A DNA stretch of 64,000 bases from an uncultured Phascolarctobacterium sp. (GTDB lineage Bacteria > Bacillota > Negativicutes > Acidaminococcales > Acidaminococcaceae), in assembly GCA_947630795.1 (NCBI GenBank), contig CANRJC010000002.1, forward strand, positions 62,001 to 126,000, read 5' to 3'. The notes beneath the pieces were generated by a model. That model was not told where the DNA came from. It saw only the letters and a program-made list of their open reading frames with translations, and ran no database searches. A program made the translations under genes and the position numbers. Below are positions 2,168 to 49,221 of this stretch, in pieces. The first letter of the stretch is position 1. Each line of letters begins with the position of its first letter.

Positions 2168-3478
2168 ATGAAGATGACTACGGCGAAAAAGATCTTGACG
2201 GTTTTAGCGGCCGTTCTTTTTTCTTTAGGCCCGTTTTGCGGCTGTGAGGCAAAAGAGGCGGATCTTTTCGACAAATTTCCCCGGCCGGAAAAATGGACGG
2301 AAAACAATGCAAAAGGCGAGCAAGTGATCCTCAATGCCGACGCCGTCGCCGCTTTCTCACGGCAAGTGACGGAAGTTTCTCCTTCGGTGGCAGATCTTAA
2401 AGCTTATCCCGCCGCCGTAGACGGAGAAACAGTGCGGGCCCTCGTGAGCGACTACAGCGTCCTCGCCGACGATTTCTATCGGGCCGGGCTCTTGGTCAGC
2501 GAAAATTACAAAAATATTTTGCGCAAGCTCACCAACGCCGACAATGTGCCGGCTACGGTGAAGGTGCGCTATGCCCTGTGCGTGCGCAAGGCCAACCTGC
2601 GGGCTCTGCCCACCGGCGAAGGTCTTTTCTACGCACCGGGCGATGTAGACTTCGACGTGCTGCAGCAAACGGTGCTGGATCCCATGGAGCCGGTCATCGT
2701 CCTTCACGACAGCAGTACGTTGAATTTTTATTTCGTGCGGGCCGCCAACTACTGCGGCTGGCTCTCCCGTTTGGACCTGGCCTTCACAGACAGGAACACT
2801 TGGCTGCAATATGCGGAGCCGGAAAAATTTTTGGTGGTGACCGACCGAGAACTTTTTTTGAAGACGGGGGCAGAGCAAGTGCGCTATCAGCAGGGGGCGA
2901 GGCTGCCCGTCAAAGAAGAAACGAACGGCGTGTATAAGCTGAACGCTCCCGTCAGAGGGAAGAACGGCCAGATCGCCTGGGAGCCGGTGCAGATCTTAAA
3001 GAGCAATCCCAAAGTCCATTTGGGTTATCTGCCTTACACGACCAACAACATCATCCGCGCCGCCTATAAATGGTACGGCGCTCCCTACGGCTGGGGAGGG
3101 ATGAAGAACAGCGTCGACTGCTCCAGTCTCATCTACAATGTTTACAGAACGGTGGGGATAAGATTGCCCCGCGATGCGGACCAGCAGGAGACCACCGCCG
3201 GCAGACACTACGAACTGGCGGCAGCGGCCGGCGAAGCGGCCCGTTTGGCCATCATCAATCGGCTGCAGCCGGGGAGCCCCCTTTTCATGCACGGCCACGC
3301 CGTCCTCTATTTGGGCTCCGTAGACGGCATCCCCTATTGCATCCACTCTTTGGGCTCTTGCTACGAGGGAGGCAAGCGCCTGCGGGTGATGCAGGTGGTA
3401 GTGAGCGATCTTGATCTGGAGCGGGCCAACGGGTCCAGCTTCCTCAATGCATTGACCGGTGCGGTAGAATATAAGTGA
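2168..3478 (+). CDS. SH3-domain NlpC/P60 peptidoglycan endopeptidase
   Basis: A 436-residue exported cell-wall hydrolase. The N-terminus is basic-hydrophobic and ends in FCGC, a secretion signal although not a clean lipobox. The middle part (about residues 60-290) fits the bacterial SH3 modules that precede NlpC/P60 domains in this architecture. The C-terminal NlpC/P60 domain has the catalytic Cys near residue 318 in NSVDCSSLIYN and the His near 377 in HGHAVLYLG. Known relatives cleave the gamma-D-Glu-meso-DAP bond of peptide stems; specificity here is inferred. The start ATG at 2168 follows a G-rich ribosome-binding site, with an in-frame ATG two codons later. leucyl aminopeptidase follows 10 bases after the stop. 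Confidence 0.9.
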   Translation: MKMTTAKKILTVLAAVLFSLGPFCGCEAKEADLFDKFPRPEKWTENNAKGEQVILNADAVAAFSRQVTEVSPSVADLKAYPAAVDGETVRALVSDYSVLADDFYRAGLLVSENYKNILRKLTNADNVPATVKVRYALCVRKANLRALPTGEGLFYAPGDVDFDVLQQTVLDPMEPVIVLHDSSTLNFYFVRAANYCGWLSRLDLAFTDRNTWLQYAEPEKFLVVTDRELFLKTGAEQVRYQQGARLPVKEETNGVYKLNAPVRGKNGQIAWEPVQILKSNPKVHLGYLPYTTNNIIRAAYKWYGAPYGWGGMKNSVDCSSLIYNVYRTVGIRLPRDADQQETTAGRHYELAAAAGEAARLAIINRLQPGSPLFMHGHAVLYLGSVDGIPYCIHSLGSCYEGGKRLRVMQVVVSDLDLERANGSSFLNALTGAVEYK

Positions 3479-3488
3479 GGTCAGGGAT

Positions 3489-4991
3489 ATGCTGAATAAT
3501 TTGAGTTTGTGCAACACGGAAAAAGAGGGGGCCGCCTACGGCGACAAAGGTGCTTTTCTTCTCTTTTTGTGCAAAGAATGTGAGGCGGCTCTTCCTAAAT
3601 TGGCTTTGCCCGAAGAAGTTTCGAAGGCGACCACCGCTCTTTTGGCCGCGACCGCCGACCCCTTCGAGATCGGCAAGGTCAGCGTCTGCAGCCTCCTTTG
3701 CGGATCGAACCTGCGGCACATCATCATCGCAGGCTGCGGCTCGGGAAGAGAATGTAAGCCCACAGCTTTTAAGCAGGCAGCGGGAGAGGCGGCGAGAGTC
3801 CTTAAAACAAAAAAGTGCGAAGAAGCGATCGTGCTGGCTCCCATACTTTTAAACCCCAAACGCACGCCCTATCTTGAAGCCATCGCCGAAGGTCTGTATC
3901 TCGGGGCTTACGATTTCACCATCTATAAGAGGAAGGCAGAAAATGCCGTCACCTGCAAAATAAAAATAGTCTCCGCCTGCGAAGGAGCCGAGCTTGCTTT
4001 AAAACGGGCCCTCGTGAAAGGGCAGGCCGTGAGCATGGTGCGTGACTTGGTGAACGAGCCGGGCAACAAGCTGGGGCCGGAAGAATTGGCGGACTTTGCC
4101 CGGCAAGTGGCAGGAGAAAACAGCCTGAGCTGTGAGATCTTAGATCGCAAAGCTTTAAAAGAGCTGGGCTGCGGCGCCCTCTTGGCCGTGGGGCAGGGCA
4201 GCGTTCGGGAGCCCCGTCTCATCGCTTTGCGCTATAACGGGGCGGGGGACGCTCCCTATACTGCCTTCGTGGGCAAAGGCATCACCTTCGACAGCGGCGG
4301 TCTTTCTTTGAAACCTGCCGCCAACATGGGCGAGATGAAGGACGATATGTCCGGCGCAGCGGCAGTGCTGGGAGCGATCAAAGCAGCGGCCGAATTACAT
4401 TTAGCCGTTAATTTATTGGCCGTCCTCTCCTGTGCCGAGAACATGCCGGGAGGAGGAGCTCAACGGCCGGGAGACATTGTCACCGCGGCCGACGGGCAAA
4501 CGATAGAAGTGGTGAACACCGACGCCGAAGGCAGGCTGGTGCTGGCCGATGCCGTTTGGTACGCAGCCAAACAGGGAGCGGCCCGCATCGTGGACATCGC
4601 CACTTTGACGGGAGCGGTCATCACCGCTTTGGGCAAAGAGACCGGCGGCATCATCGCTTTCGACGACGGCTTGGCGGCCTCGATCAAAGAAGCGGGCCGT
4701 TTGGCCGGGGAACTGTGGTGGCAGTTGCCCACGCCCCCCGATCTTCGCGAGGCCATCAAAGGGGAAGAGGCCGATCTTCTCAATTCCACCGGCAGCACCG
4801 TGGGAGGAGGCTGCATCACCGGCGGTCTCTTCATCGGCAGTTTCGTGCCCGAAGAGCTACCTTGGGCCCATTTAGACATCGGCGGCACCGCCAGCCGGGA
4901 GAAAGCGGCCGGTTTCGTGAGCAAGGGAGGTACAGGCTTCGGCACCCTCACCCTCATCAAATTGGCAGAAACTTTGGCGAGCGAAAAATAA
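3489..4991 (+). CDS. pepA: Leucyl aminopeptidase, M17 family
   Basis: A 500-residue cytosolic di-metal aminopeptidase that removes N-terminal residues from peptides. The M17 hallmarks are clear: VNEPGNKLGPEELA before the catalytic domain, GKGITFDSGGLSLKP with metal-binding Lys and Asp, MKDDMSGAAAVLG, and NTDAEGRLVLADA. The N-terminal third is divergent, as usual. It follows the NlpC/P60 gene after 10 bases, so products of wall-peptide turnover may feed it, an inference from position only. The product could also be named cytosol aminopeptidase; the family is not in doubt. Confidence 0.95.
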   Translation: MLNNLSLCNTEKEGAAYGDKGAFLLFLCKECEAALPKLALPEEVSKATTALLAATADPFEIGKVSVCSLLCGSNLRHIIIAGCGSGRECKPTAFKQAAGEAARVLKTKKCEEAIVLAPILLNPKRTPYLEAIAEGLYLGAYDFTIYKRKAENAVTCKIKIVSACEGAELALKRALVKGQAVSMVRDLVNEPGNKLGPEELADFARQVAGENSLSCEILDRKALKELGCGALLAVGQGSVREPRLIALRYNGAGDAPYTAFVGKGITFDSGGLSLKPAANMGEMKDDMSGAAAVLGAIKAAAELHLAVNLLAVLSCAENMPGGGAQRPGDIVTAADGQTIEVVNTDAEGRLVLADAVWYAAKQGAARIVDIATLTGAVITALGKETGGIIAFDDGLAASIKEAGRLAGELWWQLPTPPDLREAIKGEEADLLNSTGSTVGGGCITGGLFIGSFVPEELPWAHLDIGGTASREKAAGFVSKGGTGFGTLTLIKLAETLASEK

Positions 4992-5080
4992 GCGAATAAT
5001 AAGCAAAAAATAAACTGAACATAAGTTGAACATAAGTTAAAAATAAGCAAAAATAAATTTGCTCACGGGAAGAAAAAAGC
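4992..5080. repeat. A/T-rich intergenic stretch with short tandem and dispersed repeats
   Basis: Two copies of AACATAAGTT sit side by side (about 5017-5038). They are bracketed by two near-copies of AATAAGCAAAAATAA (about 4997 and 5042). No hairpin with a T-run is evident, so it is not a classical terminator. Confidence 0.6.
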
Positions 5081-5917
5081 ATGGAAGTTGTGGCCTTTAT
5101 AGGACCAAGCGGGACGGGGAAGTCGCACAGAGCGGTGAATGTGGCCTATGCCCACGGCTGCGATGCCATCATCGACGACGGCTTGTTGATCAGGGGCACC
5201 CACATTTTGGCCGGGGTCTCCGCCAAAAACGAGAACAATAAGATCCAGGCGGTGAAGCGGGCCATCTTCACCGACCCGGAGCACACCCGCAACGTGCAGC
5301 TGGCCCTGGCCAAAAGCGACATCAAAAGATTGCTGGTCATCGCCACCTCCGACAACATGTTGAGCCGTATTTTGGAGAAATTGGGCTTGCCCGAGCCTGT
5401 TGAAAAGGTCTACATCAATCAGGTGGTAACGAAGGCCGAGATCAAAAAAGCCCGCTACGAGCGGCTCCATTACGGCAAGCACGTGGTGCCGGTGCCCAAT
5501 GTGGAATTGAAGTCCCACCTCACCGGTTATTTTGCCGATCTGCCCTACAATCTTTTCGCCGGCGACAGCGGACCGAAGGAAGGGGACAGGAGCATCGTCC
5601 GCCCGCCTTTCAGTTTTTTCGGTAAATTGTTGGTGGCCGACAGTGCGGTGGAAGACATCATCCGCATCATCGCCGACAAAGACGCCAACGTGCTGCGCCT
5701 GAAGAGCATCAGCGTGCGCCGACGCAGCGGTTACGGCAGAGGCATCGTCATCGGCATCGACTTGGCGCTGGTGTACGGGGCGAAGATCTTCGCCGTCACC
5801 CGCGCTCTGCAGGAAAAGATCAAGCAGAGAGTGGAATATATGACCGCCATGAACGTAAACAATGTGAACATAACCGTCCGCAGCTTGGGCAAGCGGCCTC
5901 AGGCGGCGGGAAAATAA
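5081..5917 (+). CDS. P-loop ATP-binding protein with C-terminal Asp23-like domain
   Basis: A 278-residue protein of unknown role. Residues 8-15 are a Walker A motif (GPSGTGKS), and DAIIDDGLLIRGTHI just after it resembles nucleotide-kinase-like P-loop proteins. The C-terminal 75 residues match the pattern of Asp23/Gls24 envelope-stress proteins: RRRSGYGRGIVIGIDLALVYG, then ALQEKIKQRVEYMT and NVNNVNITVRSL. This is a fusion of two modules usually found apart. It is probably cytosolic, possibly at the cell envelope. The ribosome-binding site before ATG 5081 is weak (ACGGGAAG). A small EF-hand-like gene follows after 23 bases behind GGAGAGAG, so the two are probably co-transcribed. Confidence 0.75.
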   Translation: MEVVAFIGPSGTGKSHRAVNVAYAHGCDAIIDDGLLIRGTHILAGVSAKNENNKIQAVKRAIFTDPEHTRNVQLALAKSDIKRLLVIATSDNMLSRILEKLGLPEPVEKVYINQVVTKAEIKKARYERLHYGKHVVPVPNVELKSHLTGYFADLPYNLFAGDSGPKEGDRSIVRPPFSFFGKLLVADSAVEDIIRIIADKDANVLRLKSISVRRRSGYGRGIVIGIDLALVYGAKIFAVTRALQEKIKQRVEYMTAMNVNNVNITVRSLGKRPQAAGK

Positions 5918-42354: not shown

Positions 42355-43578
42355 TTATGCGGCGGGTCTTTGGGGCTCGCCTTTTTGTTTCAAGAGAAGG
42401 GCAAGAAGCAGACTGAAGGCCAAAGCGGCGGCGAAGAAGGAGAGGGTGACGGCGTAGCTTTTGCTGCGCTCGTAAAGCAGAGAGAGGAGCAGCGGGCCGG
42501 CGATGCCGGCCAAGCCCCAGGCGGTGAGGATGCGGCCGTGGATGGCGCTGAGATAGCCGCTGCCGAAGAGATCGCTCAAATAGGCGGGCATGCAGGCGAA
42601 GCCGCCGCCGTAGCAGGTGATGATGAGGTAGATGAGCCCCTGAAAGAGCAGAGCATCTTTTGTGCGGGCCAAAAGAAGAAAGGCGGCTATCTGCAAAGCG
42701 AAGAAGGCGATATAGGTGAAAGGGCGGCCGATGCGGTCGCTGACTGCGGACCACACGAGGCGGCCCAGCCCGTTCAAAAGGCCCACGATGCCCACCATGG
42801 AAGCGGCGGCCAGAGGCGAGAGGCCGACGAGTTCCTGAGCCATGGGGGAGGCCACGGCCAAAAGGGCGATGCCGCAGGTGATGTTGGTGAAAAAGAGCCA
42901 CCACAAAATTTTGAATTGCCACGTGCTCACCGCCTGAGCGGGCGTGAAGCTGTTGTCTTTAAGAAGAGAAGCGTAGTGTTGGGGGGCTGCGGCTGCTGCC
43001 AACGCTTCGGGGGGCGGAGCGAGATAGAGCGAAGAAGAAAGCATCAAGAGAAAATAGACGCTGCCCATGATGAGAAAAGTTTGCACCAAGCCCACGCCGG
43101 CGATCAAAAGCTGCATCACGGGGGCAGCGATGAGGCCGGCGAAGCCGAAGCCCATGATGGCCAGGCCTGCTGCCAAGCCTCTGTTCTTGGGAAAATATTT
43201 CACCAAGGTGGAGACGGGGGCGATGTAGCCGACACCGAGGCCGATGCCGCCGATGACGCCGTAAAAAAGATAGAGCAAAAGCAGGCTGCCCCGGGTGAGG
43301 GCGAGGGCGCTGCCCAGCATCCCGCCGGTGAATAGAGCCGTGGCGATGAGGCCGCTCTTTTTTGGGCCCAGGTGTTCGACGAAGGAGCCGAGGCTGCCGG
43401 CGGAGAGGCCCAAGAAGAGGATGGCGATGGAAAAGATCCACGTAACTTCCTGCAGGGTGCAGCCCAAACGGGCCATGATGGGGCGGGCAAGGACGCTCCA
43501 GGCATAAACGCTGCCGATGGAGAGGTGGATGCCGATGGCGGCGGCGACGATCAGCCATTTGTTTTTTGCTTTTTTCAT
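42355..43578 (-). CDS. OFA-family MFS transporter (oxalate/formate type)
   Basis: A 407-residue, 12-helix major-facilitator protein. The early SIGSVYAWSVLARPI, then AGSLGSFVEHLGPKKSG, GGIGLGVGYIAPVSTLVKYFP and FGFAGLIAAPV are the pattern of the oxalate/formate antiporter (OFA) family. Substrates of bacterial members include oxalate, formate and other small carboxylates; none is proven here. ATG 43578 follows GGGAGG. The leader carries a ZTP riboswitch, pointing to one-carbon or purine metabolism and making formate a plausible substrate. Confidence 0.9.
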   Translation of the reverse strand: MKKAKNKWLIVAAAIGIHLSIGSVYAWSVLARPIMARLGCTLQEVTWIFSIAILFLGLSAGSLGSFVEHLGPKKSGLIATALFTGGMLGSALALTRGSLLLLYLFYGVIGGIGLGVGYIAPVSTLVKYFPKNRGLAAGLAIMGFGFAGLIAAPVMQLLIAGVGLVQTFLIMGSVYFLLMLSSSLYLAPPPEALAAAAAPQHYASLLKDNSFTPAQAVSTWQFKILWWLFFTNITCGIALLAVASPMAQELVGLSPLAAASMVGIVGLLNGLGRLVWSAVSDRIGRPFTYIAFFALQIAAFLLLARTKDALLFQGLIYLIITCYGGGFACMPAYLSDLFGSGYLSAIHGRILTAWGLAGIAGPLLLSLLYERSKSYAVTLSFFAAALAFSLLLALLLKQKGEPQRPAA

Positions 43579-43617
43579 GTGATCCTCCCGAAAATTGTGA
43601 TGAGGCTGCGCCGGGGC

Positions 43618-43713
43618 AAAAAAATACCGCCGGGTGCAGAGGGCGCCCAGACGGTCGGCTGAAAGCCGCTGCGGTCCACGTGGTCGTTTCCACTTATCCG
43701 TCAGTTCCGCAAC
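43618..43713 (-). promoter_or_regulatory. ZTP (pfl) riboswitch with terminator
   Basis: Minus-strand RNA: P1 GCGG/CCGC, conserved loop ACUGACGG, P2 GUGG/CCAC, GUGGA, a CGGC/GCCG hairpin and the hallmark CCGUCUGGGC (43654-43645). GACGG and CCGUC can form the known pseudoknot. CCGUCUGGG can instead pair with CCCGGCGG, followed by UAUUUUUUU, forming a terminator. ZTP/ZMP binding should therefore prevent termination and turn on the transporter. Confidence 0.93.
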
Positions 43714-43735
43714 GAGCTGTGAAAGTTGTATTTTT

Positions 43736-43763
43736 ATTGTAACAGATATCGGGGCGGCGTCAA
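43736..43763 (-). promoter_or_regulatory. Promoter of the ZTP riboswitch/OFA transporter unit
   Basis: TTGACG (43763-43758) and TACAAT (43741-43736) on the minus strand, 16 bases apart, just before the riboswitch. Confidence 0.8.
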
Positions 43764-44388: not shown

Positions 44389-44425
44389 GGTGAGTAAAAT
44401 AAAAAAGCAAAAGGAGGAAAAGCCT

Positions 44426-45403
44426 ATGCCCCGAATGAAAAGGACCGTAAAGGACAGCGTCTTCACTTATCTTTTTAAAGATCCGAGGTACATCCTGCAG
44501 CTCTATAAGTCGCTGCATCGTGAAGACGACAGCACCGAAGAAAAAGATATCGAGTTGCTGACTTTGGCCAATGTTCTGGTCGATGACATCTACAACGATT
44601 TGGGCTTTTTGGTGAAAGGCCGGCTGATCGTTTTAGTGGAAGCCCAGTCCACATTTTCTCGGAACATCGCCTATCGTATGCTGCTTTACATGACAGCAAC
44701 TTTTAAAGCCTACGCCGATAGAGAAAAGATGGACAGCCACTCGCAGAAAGATCTGCACTTCCCTCATGCGGAGGTATATGTTATCTACACGGGGGAGGGA
44801 GAAGTCCCCGCTGTCTGTCGATTTTCGGATCTCTGCGAAAAAGGGAAAGATGAAGACGATGTAGATGTAGAAACGAAAGTCCATGTACTGCGGGGGGATG
44901 CCGCCGACAAAAACGACATCGTGAGGCAGTATGTGCGCTTTTGCAAGATCGCCGATGAAGAGCGGCGCAAAGGCGGCCCCACGGCAGAAACGGTAGAGAG
45001 GATCATAGACCGTTGTATAAAAGAAAATGTGCTTGCAGCCTTCTTGGCTTCACGGCGGAGGGAGGTAGAGGATATGATGGTAGTATTGTTCGATGAAAAG
45101 AAAGTAAGAGAGATCCACGAGTACAATGTCAGAAAGGATGCACTGGAAGAAGGAGTAGAGAAAGGCAGAGCCGAGGGCAGAGCCGAAGGCATGAAGAAAG
45201 GCAGAGCCGAAGGGAGAGCTGAAGGGAGAGCTGAAGGGAGAGCCGAAGGGAGAAACGAAGGAACAGAAAAAGGCATCTCTGCCATGGTAGCCACCTTGAA
45301 AGAATTGTCTTTGGAAAGAGATTTTGCGAAGCAAAAATTAATGCAGCGCTTCGACCTTACGCCCGAGGCAGCGGCGGCGAAGGTAGAGCAGTATTGGAAC
45401 TGA
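44426..45403 (+). CDS. Rpn-family PD-(D/E)XK nuclease, copy 1
   Basis: A 325-residue protein of the Rpn recombination-promoting nuclease/putative transposase family. The nuclease core shows NDLGF (Asp58) and VLVEAQS (Glu72-x-Gln74), the D...ExQ form of the PD-(D/E)XK fold. The C-terminal part has a GRAE-type repeat (nucleotides about 45164-45262) and ends KVEQYW. Rpn proteins cut DNA, and some act in phage defence; some carry an internal start giving a short antitoxin. ATG 44426 is chosen because GGAGG lies 8 bases upstream; a GTG at 44390 is in frame but less likely. The gene follows a structured RNA and precedes a type I R-M operon. Confidence 0.88.
   Translation: MPRMKRTVKDSVFTYLFKDPRYILQLYKSLHREDDSTEEKDIELLTLANVLVDDIYNDLGFLVKGRLIVLVEAQSTFSRNIAYRMLLYMTATFKAYADREKMDSHSQKDLHFPHAEVYVIYTGEGEVPAVCRFSDLCEKGKDEDDVDVETKVHVLRGDAADKNDIVRQYVRFCKIADEERRKGGPTAETVERIIDRCIKENVLAAFLASRRREVEDMMVVLFDEKKVREIHEYNVRKDALEEGVEKGRAEGRAEGMKKGRAEGRAEGRAEGRAEGRNEGTEKGISAMVATLKELSLERDFAKQKLMQRFDLTPEAAAAKVEQYWN
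45164..45262 (+). repeat. 12-base repeat coding for GRAE units in rpn1
   Basis: About seven units of the type GGCAGAGCCGAA/GGGAGAGCTGAA. Units keep the frame. The second rpn copy lacks the array, having a single GRDEG. Confidence 0.85.
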
Positions 45404-45671: not shown

Positions 45672-45831
45672 TTTGACGGGGTTGGTAAAATGAGGGGCTG
45701 GGGGATGGGGGAGAGAAAAAATTCGAAGAGAGGGAGGGGGAGGGCAAAAGGGCAGAATTTGTCCAAGTGGCGGAGATAAAGGGCGTTGTGGTATAATGAA
45801 AAAAATGCGGGAAAGAAATGAGGTAGGAACA

Positions 45832-47934
45832 ATGGCCGATAAAACAAAGATCGATGCCATGTGGGACGATGCTCCCATCGACGTCACCGCAGAGGTGAAT
45901 TTTATTTGGTCTATCGCCAACAAACTGCGGGGACCGTATCGCAGCGATAAATATAAAGATGTGATCATCCCCATGACCATCATCCGCCGTTTCGAGTGCG
46001 CCCTTGCGCCCACCAAGCAGGCGGTGGTGAAGCAGTATGAGGCGAATCCCTCTTTCCCCGCTAAGGCGATGTATCGCGTCTCGGGCTATCAATTTTACAA
46101 CAGCAGCCGTTTTGATCTAGGGGAATTGGTGAACGATCCGGATCATTTGGCCGAAAATTTCAAAAATTACATCCAAGGTTTTTCCGTCAACGTGCAGGAA
46201 TTGATAGCGTCCAAAGAAAGAGGCCTGGATTTTTTCGAACAGATCGACAAAATGGACAAGAACGATCGCCTCTACTCCGTGGTGAAGGCTTTTTCCGAAT
46301 TAGACCTTGACCCACGCACCATCGACAACGTGAAAATGGGGTACATCTTTGAAGAATTGATCCGCAAATTTTCCGAAAATGCCGACGCCGGCGACCACTA
46401 CACCGGGCGCGACATCATCAAATTGATGGTGAACATCCTTTTGGCCGAGGGTTGCGATGATATTTTCGACGACGGCAAGGTGATCACTATTTTGGATCAA
46501 GCTTGCGGTACCGGCGGTATGCTCTCCACCGGCTACAATTTCATCAAACGCTACAATCCATCGGCCGACGTGCGCCTCTTCGGGCAGGAGATCAACCCCG
46601 AATCTTACGCTATGTGTTTGGCGGAGATGCTGATAAAAGGGCAGAACGCCGAAAATATCCGCTATCAGGACACCATGAAGGACGATTGCTTCAAGGGTAC
46701 GAAGATGCGTTTCGTTTTGGAGAATCCTCCTTTCGGTCAGGCCTGGGGCGGTAAAGACGCTGCCGAGGGCGTAGAAGCCGCTGTGCAGGCCGAACACAGA
46801 AAAGGCTTTGCCGGACGTTGGGGGGCGGGTCTGCCCGGGTCGGGCGATATGCAGCTGTTGTTTTTGCAATCGGCGGTGGATAAAATGGACGACCGCTTGG
46901 GTCGTTGCGCCATCATCGAAAACGGCAGCCCTCTTTTCACCGGGGGCACGGCTTCCGGCGAGAGCCAAATTCGCCGCTGGCTGTTGGAGAACGATCTTAT
47001 CGAAGCCATCATCGCTCTGCCTACGGATCTTTTTTACAATACGGGCATCGCCACCTATATTTGGGTGTTGTCGAAAAATAAACGACAGGAGCGCAGGGGC
47101 AAGGTGCAGTTGATCGATGCTTCCGGCATCTATCATAAATTGCGCAAGGCTTTGGGGAACAAACGCAACGAGATAGCCCCCGAAGACCGCACTTTTATCA
47201 CCGAACTTTATGCGAACTTTGCCGAGAACGAATATTGCAAAATTTTCAAGAACGAGGAGTTCATCTACCGAGAATATACGGTGATGCAGCCTTTGCAGCG
47301 CAGCTATGCCATCACGGAGGAACGTATAGCCTCCATGATAGCCAAAGGAAGGTTGGCCTATCTTTATGACGAAGCAAAGGTCGATGAACTGGAAAATGCC
47401 GTGGAACTTAACAGCAAAGAATTGAAAAGACTGGAGACTTATCGCAACAACAGGCAGTTATATTATGCCATTCTGGATGCCCTAAAGGCTGCCGTGTCGG
47501 ATGAAGTTTATTACTCACCTGCTGCTTTTATGCCGGTATTGAGTAAAGTGCTGGCAAAGGTCACTACTGATAAAATGCTGCCCTCGCAGATAGCCCCGGG
47601 ACTTTCCGTCATGGACAAGAAAGGGGAGATACAGCGAGATCGCTTAGGGCGGATAATTTATGATAAAGAGACGAAGTCCATCGAGAGGGTGAAATTTGAA
47701 GAGGATATAAATTCTTATATGGCCAGGGAAGTGCTGCCTCATATCCCCGATGCCAAGGCGTTTTTCGAAGCAGACCTCAGTGCCAAAAAGCCGGTGATCA
47801 AGACCGGGGCGGAGATCCCTTTCACCCGTTATTTTTATAAATATCAACAACCCACGCCCAGCGACGAACTGGCGGCCCGTTTTATGGAATTGGAGCTTTC
47901 GGTCTCGGAGCGAGTGGCGAAGTTGTTTGAATGA
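45832..47934 (+). CDS. hsdM: Type I restriction-modification, methyltransferase subunit HsdM
   Basis: A 700-residue N6-adenine methyltransferase. After the N-terminal HsdM domain come the SAM site LDQACGTGGMLSTGY and the catalytic LENPPFGQAW (NPPF). It is longer than most HsdM (about 500-550) by a C-terminal helical stretch ending at SERVAKLFE. With HsdS it methylates a bipartite site; with HsdR it restricts. ATG 45832 follows AGGTAGG; TATAAT at 45792-45797 is a probable -10. hsdS starts 9 bases after its stop. Confidence 0.95.
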   Translation: MADKTKIDAMWDDAPIDVTAEVNFIWSIANKLRGPYRSDKYKDVIIPMTIIRRFECALAPTKQAVVKQYEANPSFPAKAMYRVSGYQFYNSSRFDLGELVNDPDHLAENFKNYIQGFSVNVQELIASKERGLDFFEQIDKMDKNDRLYSVVKAFSELDLDPRTIDNVKMGYIFEELIRKFSENADAGDHYTGRDIIKLMVNILLAEGCDDIFDDGKVITILDQACGTGGMLSTGYNFIKRYNPSADVRLFGQEINPESYAMCLAEMLIKGQNAENIRYQDTMKDDCFKGTKMRFVLENPPFGQAWGGKDAAEGVEAAVQAEHRKGFAGRWGAGLPGSGDMQLLFLQSAVDKMDDRLGRCAIIENGSPLFTGGTASGESQIRRWLLENDLIEAIIALPTDLFYNTGIATYIWVLSKNKRQERRGKVQLIDASGIYHKLRKALGNKRNEIAPEDRTFITELYANFAENEYCKIFKNEEFIYREYTVMQPLQRSYAITEERIASMIAKGRLAYLYDEAKVDELENAVELNSKELKRLETYRNNRQLYYAILDALKAAVSDEVYYSPAAFMPVLSKVLAKVTTDKMLPSQIAPGLSVMDKKGEIQRDRLGRIIYDKETKSIERVKFEEDINSYMAREVLPHIPDAKAFFEADLSAKKPVIKTGAEIPFTRYFYKYQQPTPSDELAARFMELELSVSERVAKLFE

Positions 47935-47943
47935 GGTGAGAAG

Positions 47944-49221
47944 ATGCGGGCGATGAAAGACAGCGGGATAGAGTGGATAGGTGAGATACCGGAGAAGTGG
48001 GAAGTCGGAAAGATAAAGTATCAATTTTCTGTAACATTAGGAAAAATGCTTCAAACAAGTTCTGGCAGTACGTTTGATACACTAGAAAACTATGCATGTG
48101 CTGCTAATATCAAATGGTCGGGATTTGACACTAGCGTCTGCAAAATGATGTGGTTTTCAACATTTGAGAAAAAAGCCTATCTTCTGAAAGAAGGGGATGT
48201 TCTTGTAATGGAGGGGGGATTAGCTGGAACCACATGTATTTACCATAATGAAAACAGTCCCTGTTATATGCAAAATTCGGTAAATCGATGCAGAAACTTA
48301 TCGGGTTACCCAAATAAGCTGTTGTATTACTGGTTATTTCACGTGTTTCATTGCGGTTACATTGAAAGTATCAGCAATAAAGCAACAATTATGCATTTCA
48401 CAAAAGAGAAAATTGAAGGAACGCCGTTAATTATTCCCCCTCTCTCCGAGCAGCGCAACATCGCCGACTTTCTCGATGCTAAGTGCGCAGAGATAGATGC
48501 TCTGTGTGCCGATATTCAAAAGCAAATAGACACGCTTGAACAGTATAAACGCTCCGTCATCAGCGAAGCCGTCACCAAAGGGCTGGACCCCAACGCCGAG
48601 ATGAAAGACAGCGGGATCGAGTGGATAGGGGAGATACCGAAGAAGTGGAAAGTTATTCGTGGCAAGTATGTGCTTAAATACCTACAAAAACCTGTTATGA
48701 CTGATGACGGGGTAGTAACTTGCTTTAGAGACGGAGAAGTTACCCTTAGAAGCAACCGTCGTGAAGATGGTTTCACAATGTCAGATAAAGAAATAGGGTA
48801 TCAAGGTGTTGATATCGGTGATTTAGTTGTGCATGGTATGGACGGTGCTGCGGGATCCATTGGGATTTCCGATTCAAGAGGTAAGGTATCTCCTGTTCTC
48901 AACGTGTTAGATTCAGATCAGGATAAATGGTACTTAATGTATTATCTTCGTGCTGCGGCTTATAGGGAAGTATTTCTAGCTTTAGCTACCGGGATTCGTG
49001 TGCGTTCTTGCGACCTACGGTGGAATAAGTTGGCAGAACTGCCTTTTCTTGTACCGCCTAAAGCAGAACAAAAAATTATCGTTGACCATATAAAAGAAAC
49101 TATCGCAAAAACAGATAAGGTAATTTCGGGCAAGAAAGAACAGCTCACGATGCTAGACGCTTACAAAAAGTCTCTCATCTTCGAATACGTTACAGGGAAG
49201 AAAGAGGTGCCTGCAGTATGA
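47944..49221 (+). CDS. hsdS: Type I specificity subunit HsdS
   Basis: A 425-residue DNA-recognition subunit with two target-recognition domains and conserved spacers. Each half begins with the same segment (MKDSGIEWIGEIPEKW at the start, MKDSGIEWIGEIPKKW near residue 220), encoded by a 48-base direct repeat. SEQRNIADFLDAKCAEIDAL and PKAEQKIIVDHIKETI are the coiled-coil spacers. The recognition domains are clearly richer in A/T than hsdM and hsdR, a common sign of domain exchange by transfer. It overlaps hsdR by 4 bases. The target sequence cannot be read from the protein. Confidence 0.95.
   Translation: MRAMKDSGIEWIGEIPEKWEVGKIKYQFSVTLGKMLQTSSGSTFDTLENYACAANIKWSGFDTSVCKMMWFSTFEKKAYLLKEGDVLVMEGGLAGTTCIYHNENSPCYMQNSVNRCRNLSGYPNKLLYYWLFHVFHCGYIESISNKATIMHFTKEKIEGTPLIIPPLSEQRNIADFLDAKCAEIDALCADIQKQIDTLEQYKRSVISEAVTKGLDPNAEMKDSGIEWIGEIPKKWKVIRGKYVLKYLQKPVMTDDGVVTCFRDGEVTLRSNRREDGFTMSDKEIGYQGVDIGDLVVHGMDGAAGSIGISDSRGKVSPVLNVLDSDQDKWYLMYYLRAAAYREVFLALATGIRVRSCDLRWNKLAELPFLVPPKAEQKIIVDHIKETIAKTDKVISGKKEQLTMLDAYKKSLIFEYVTGKKEVPAV
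47953..48648 (+). repeat. 48-base direct repeat within hsdS (47953-48000 and 48601-48648)
   Basis: The two copies differ at three positions. Recombination between them, or with other hsdS genes, would swap the first recognition domain. Confidence 0.9.

Follow-up and report, generated by a model that had tools for sequence, protein, structure and literature searches.

A ZTP riboswitch ahead of a probable MFS formate importer that tends to replace pyruvate formate-lyase or FocA in Negativicutes

Riboswitches of the ZTP class sense shortage of the one-carbon cofactor 10-formyl-tetrahydrofolate (10-formyl-THF). In the window analyzed here, that is, the whole 64-kb stretch of DNA under study, a riboswitch of this class precedes a gene encoding a transporter of the major facilitator superfamily (MFS), which raises the question of what such a protein carries and how its transport could serve a cell that is running short of 10-formyl-THF. 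No transporter was among the common targets of the ZTP motif named in 2010 (PMC2864571), and the pairing was not found by a full-text literature search made without the gene tables of Kim et al. 2015.

Scanning the whole window against Rfam returned a single match above the gathering threshold, to RF01750 (ZMP-ZTP), which spans the full length of the model (1-86) with a score of 59.1 bits against a cut-off of 39 (E 4.8e-7; Table 1). The initial annotation had recognized a full ZTP aptamer on the minus strand by its ACUGACGG, GUGGA, and CCGUCUGGGC elements and had suggested this covariance-model scan as a check; the matched region contains these elements, and the assignment is further borne out by covariation and by conservation across the class. 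In 32 orthologous leaders the aptamer core is invariant, standard pairs account for 94.7% of pair cells, and each of the eight base pairs in the main P1 helix varies on both sides somewhere in the set, while none of 500 shuffles paired to as high a degree and slid registers came nowhere near it. The leader RNA is an ordinary ZTP riboswitch. Upstream of it lies a sigma-70-type promoter, the one promoter-type site found versus 0.2 expected in shuffles, and the transporter gene begins 60 bases downstream of the aptamer. As the flanking genes on both sides are on the opposite strand, the transporter is the sole gene of the transcription unit (43763 to 42355, minus strand). Elsewhere in the window, a plus-strand ORF of 337 aa (44390-45403) ends in a C-terminal run of GRAEGRAEG-type repeats and had no Pfam match at 1e-10, and type I restriction-modification genes occupy 45796-49221 of the same strand, with an HsdM-like gene (N6_Mtase and HsdM_N) first and, judged by eye, probably a two-domain specificity subunit after it.

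Table 1. Features of the riboswitch-transporter unit in window coordinates
Feature	Position	Strand	Basis
Sigma-70-type promoter TTGACG-16-TACAAT	43736..43763	-	consensus matches 10/12, TG before -10
ZTP/ZMP riboswitch aptamer (pfl motif)	43638..43718	-	RF01750; covariation in orthologues
Pseudoknot 5' strand GACGG	43698..43702	-	sequence
Pseudoknot 3' strand CCGUC	43650..43654	-	sequence
Terminator stem-loop, mutually exclusive with pseudoknot	43626..43655	-	predicted fold -17.1 kcal/mol
Terminator U-run, 7 U	43618..43624	-	sequence
Ribosome-binding site GGGAGG	43584..43589	-	sequence; 5 bases ahead of ATG 43578
OFA/MCT-type MFS transporter, proposed formate importer	42355..43578	-	ORF 407 aa; PF07690; NF049980

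All five pairs of the GACGG/CCGUC pseudoknot are formed and invariant in the 32 orthologues. This pairing had been taken for an unusual, compensated variant; compensation is evident, as 100 of 127 parsed Negativicutes ZTP aptamers have A-U at the variable pair, 27 have G-C, and none has a mismatch, but the same counts make A-U the usual state in Negativicutes rather than an oddity. The strand CCGUCUGGG finds its partner either in the pseudoknot or in a hairpin ahead of the U-run, in which ACCG.CUGGG pairs with CCCGGCGGU (43655-43626). The proposal that the 3' part of the aptamer can form a terminator stem in this way agrees with the fold predicted here and with predictions for 55 orthologous leaders, about 44 of which show the alternative pairing. 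The fold of this leader taken alone is no better than that of shuffles (z -0.67), a point that counts against our reading of the locus, and a scan of the region for simple terminator patterns was negative. Because the predicted terminator overlaps a pseudoknot strand and because of how the class behaves, the architecture would be that of an ON switch, with a ligand response presumed by analogy with other members of the class. The same ON-switch architecture is at work in the ZTP riboswitch of F. ulcerans (PMC7484762).

At least one ZTP riboswitch is present in 93 of 100 Negativicutes genomes, counting the source genome, which has only the one described here. The source genome, that of a gut bacterium, is Phascolarctobacterium-like: among named genomes, one from an uncultured Phascolarctobacterium comes closest to it, with 94% protein identity. 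Across these 100 genomes the first downstream gene was recorded for 128 ZTP riboswitch loci, three of them without a readable downstream ORF. The gene encoded AICAR formyltransferase at 48 loci and this transporter at 38 (36, plus two assigned from misread frames); pfl followed at 28, fhs at seven, a cyclodeaminase/cyclohydrolase-like gene at two, and pflA and folP at one each, the last (L196, G074:C2:150076-153252) placing dihydropteroate synthase, a folate-synthesis target, behind the riboswitch. Starting instead from 80 named loci of the transporter subfamily, the ZTP signature was detected upstream in 55 of 56 Negativicutes loci and in none of 24 from Bacilli and other phyla, and checks with Rfam found the riboswitch in eight of eight Negativicutes loci tested and in none of seven tested outside Negativicutes. 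In G043, an apparent exception to this linkage, the contig ends just upstream of the transporter gene. Two changes of the riboswitch label are needed on the transporter tree, and in the simplest reading the riboswitch was gained once and lost once, in the Mitsuokella lineage. In the same tree, the Acidaminococcus intestini transporter (L050, 556-1740) falls among Selenomonadaceae, a placement consistent with a putative horizontal gain. Tandem ZTP aptamers stand ahead of the transporter at two loci, L119 (G083:C17:139565-139764) and L109 (G093:C6:30609-30816), and could possibly give a steeper response.

The source genome encodes formate-THF ligase (Fhs), and a search of it found no pyruvate formate-lyase (Pfl), FocA, or formate dehydrogenase alpha subunit (Fdh-alpha). 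The presence of Fhs does not discriminate between genomes, since 97 of 100 have it. The distributions of Pfl and FocA do: Pfl or a strong FocA match occurs in 7 of the 38 genomes with the transporter versus 50 of the 62 without it (Fisher p 1e-9 with kinship ignored; p 0.003 at genus level). Within genus g12 there are two genomes with the transporter and no Pfl and seven with Pfl and no transporter, and within g13 three have the transporter without FocA and eleven have FocA without the transporter. This pattern of gene presence and absence suggests that the transporter tends to substitute for Pfl or FocA, in two cases by an exchange inside a single genus. Weighing against a role in formate supply, Pfl coexists with the transporter in five genomes, and in nine none of four formate routes (Pfl, FocA, Fdh-alpha, and the ZTP-linked transporter) was detected. 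The nine are G005, G015, G018, G033, G042, G046, G049, G059, and G082, several of which are incomplete.

Relatives of the transporter that lack the riboswitch also keep company with formate genes. A formate-dehydrogenase-type gene lies within 4 kb at 17 of 24 riboswitch-free loci outside Negativicutes; the two neighbours scanned as representatives score above the curated cut-offs for Fdh-alpha and the FdhF/YdeP type, as does FdhD for its own model. Of 30 further Bacillaceae loci, 28 have a formate-dehydrogenase-type gene no more than 1.5 kb away, and the remaining two have fdhD by itself. The Bacillaceae dehydrogenases concerned mostly belong to the FdhF/YdeP type, for which activity is not as well assured as for Fdh-alpha, and this too counts against the formate reading. 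In Mesobacillus maritimus (L074) the gene directly upstream of the OFA relative (3985-5263) is purT (2743-3973), which encodes the formate-dependent GAR transformylase. Linkage to formate dehydrogenase is a sign that formate is handled and says nothing about the direction of transport. We infer that formate is the substrate because the other ZTP targets in Negativicutes make or use formate or 10-formyl-THF, because the transporter tends to replace Pfl or FocA, and because its riboswitch-free relatives adjoin formate-dehydrogenase-type genes, fdhD, or purT; import would be the expected direction given an ON switch and a need for 10-formyl-THF. Formate import had been suggested in the initial annotation, and these three lines of genomic context lend it backing.

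The protein itself has PF07690 (MFS_1) as its sole Pfam match (115.6 bits; gathering 33.4), and its structural model has the MFS fold (pLDDT 89). The OFA-family label it had been given holds for the superfamily only, as both sequence and fold place it nearest to the monocarboxylate transporter SfMCT and only then to OxlT. Scoring 368.2 bits, it passes the curated cut-off (320) of NF049980, the NCBI model for L-lactate MFS transporters. This match, and the fact that SfMCT, the nearest solved structure and the homologue studied in most depth, transports L-lactate, are counted against formate, and they recommend the best-surviving alternative, namely uptake of L-lactate or pyruvate by the transporter, through which the riboswitch would raise a carbon supply that Pfl turns to formate. 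We consider this unlikely, as Pfl is absent from 33 of the 38 transporter genomes, including the source genome; the riboswitch-free relatives adjoin formate-dehydrogenase-type genes or fdhD, with no lactate gene among ten other neighbours scanned; and the SfMCT residues L28, L145, F359, C362, and H250 are V, F, L, W, and V here. These pocket and proton-site replacements make the protein look like a monocarboxylate transporter with a pocket of its own. Nor is the substrate of SfMCT transferable to it, because SfMCT disfavours one- and two-carbon acids: unsubstituted acids under three carbons did not compete with L-lactate (PMC6573034), a finding that is also counted against formate. The L-lactate label that NF049980 confers on the subfamily looks doubtful. 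The same model names a formate-dehydrogenase-linked relative (L080, 4001-5266) 'L-lactate MFS transporter' at 466 bits. At ten pocket positions the ZTP-linked members do not vary, apart from one gap, and nearly all riboswitch-free relatives match them there; Trp354 or any other pocket residue as a mark of the riboswitch-controlled members was rejected, since relatives without the riboswitch have the same residues.

Somewhat less probable still is transport of a different small monocarboxylate or of a one-carbon precursor, such as acetate, glyoxylate, or a folate precursor, or export of an intermediate. Formate is a substrate deduced from context, and at a Phycisphaerae locus (L057, 166-4938) two tandem OFA copies lie downstream of an acetate-CoA ligase, which hints at another monocarboxylate and is counted against formate; this alternative would, however, leave unexplained both the exchange with Pfl or FocA and the formate dehydrogenase and purT neighbours. 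We regard it as highly improbable that the protein is an OxlT-like oxalate:formate antiporter. The two share a superfamily, and the carboxylate-holding Arg272 and Asn268 of OxlT are conserved as Arg273 and Asn269, but the Arg272/Lys355 pair is broken, with Trp354 in the Lys355 column and Val in place of Gln34 in the ZTP-linked members. In OxlT, Lys355 holds the second carboxylate of oxalate, and OxlT sends formate out of the cell (PMC10070484), the opposite of what a shortage of 10-formyl-THF calls for. The transporter also fails both NCBI oxalate/formate models (141.3 bits for TIGR04259, curated cut-off 335), and oxalyl-CoA decarboxylase exceeded its cut-off in none of the 100 genomes, source genome included, so that exchange of oxalate is not supported. 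Least credible of all is that the leader has lost its activity or responds to a different ligand, for although its ligand response is taken from the class, its core is invariant and P1 covaries in 32 orthologues, and the aptamer is retained in all close orthologues with readable upstream sequence, bar one lineage.

Taken together, our analysis makes it probable that the locus switches on formate import at the level of transcription when 10-formyl-THF runs short. Under such a mechanism, a shortage of 10-formyl-THF would stall the AICAR transformylation step of purine synthesis and cause ZMP/ZTP to accumulate; binding of ZMP/ZTP to the aptamer would hold the GACGG/CCGUC pseudoknot, prevent formation of the terminator, and allow the transporter gene to be transcribed; and the transporter would then import formate for conversion to 10-formyl-THF by Fhs. 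In the source organism, which lacks Pfl, FocA, and formate dehydrogenase, the transporter would probably be the main controlled source of formate. More broadly, we think it probable, with a little less assurance than for this locus, that Negativicutes place a dedicated MFS importer of formate, which replaces Pfl and FocA, under the control of the ZTP alarmone, and that in Negativicutes and Bacilli the subfamily called 'L-lactate' by NCBI transports formate. If this is true, the ZTP regulon comprises scavenging as well as synthesis, and transport joins the responses that the ZTP alarmone governs. It would also suggest how gut anaerobes without Pfl obtain the one-carbon unit for purines, namely from environmental formate, and it offers a concrete substrate prediction for a large transporter subfamily that the NCBI model would name, probably wrongly, as lactate transporters.

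Compared with known systems, the leader has the full aptamer, pseudoknot, and overlapping terminator in common with the ZTP/ZMP class (RF01750) and differs in having a transporter as its target. The predicted importer shares its fold with SfMCT (PDB 6G9X; Foldseek TM 0.86, about 25% identity) and keeps the SfMCT residues Arg280, Asn276, Tyr119, Tyr331, Phe335, and Tyr383, while departing from it at four lactate-pocket positions (L28V, L145F, F359L, C362W) and at the proton site (H250V), and with Glu in place of both D257 and D378. With OxlT (PDB 8HPJ/8HPK) it likewise shares the fold, as well as Tyr35 and Tyr124 in addition to Arg272 and Asn268, and it differs in the replacement of Lys355 and Gln34 throughout the ZTP-linked members. 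With the FocA/FNT formate channel it would have the passage of formate in common, although the two belong to unrelated protein families.
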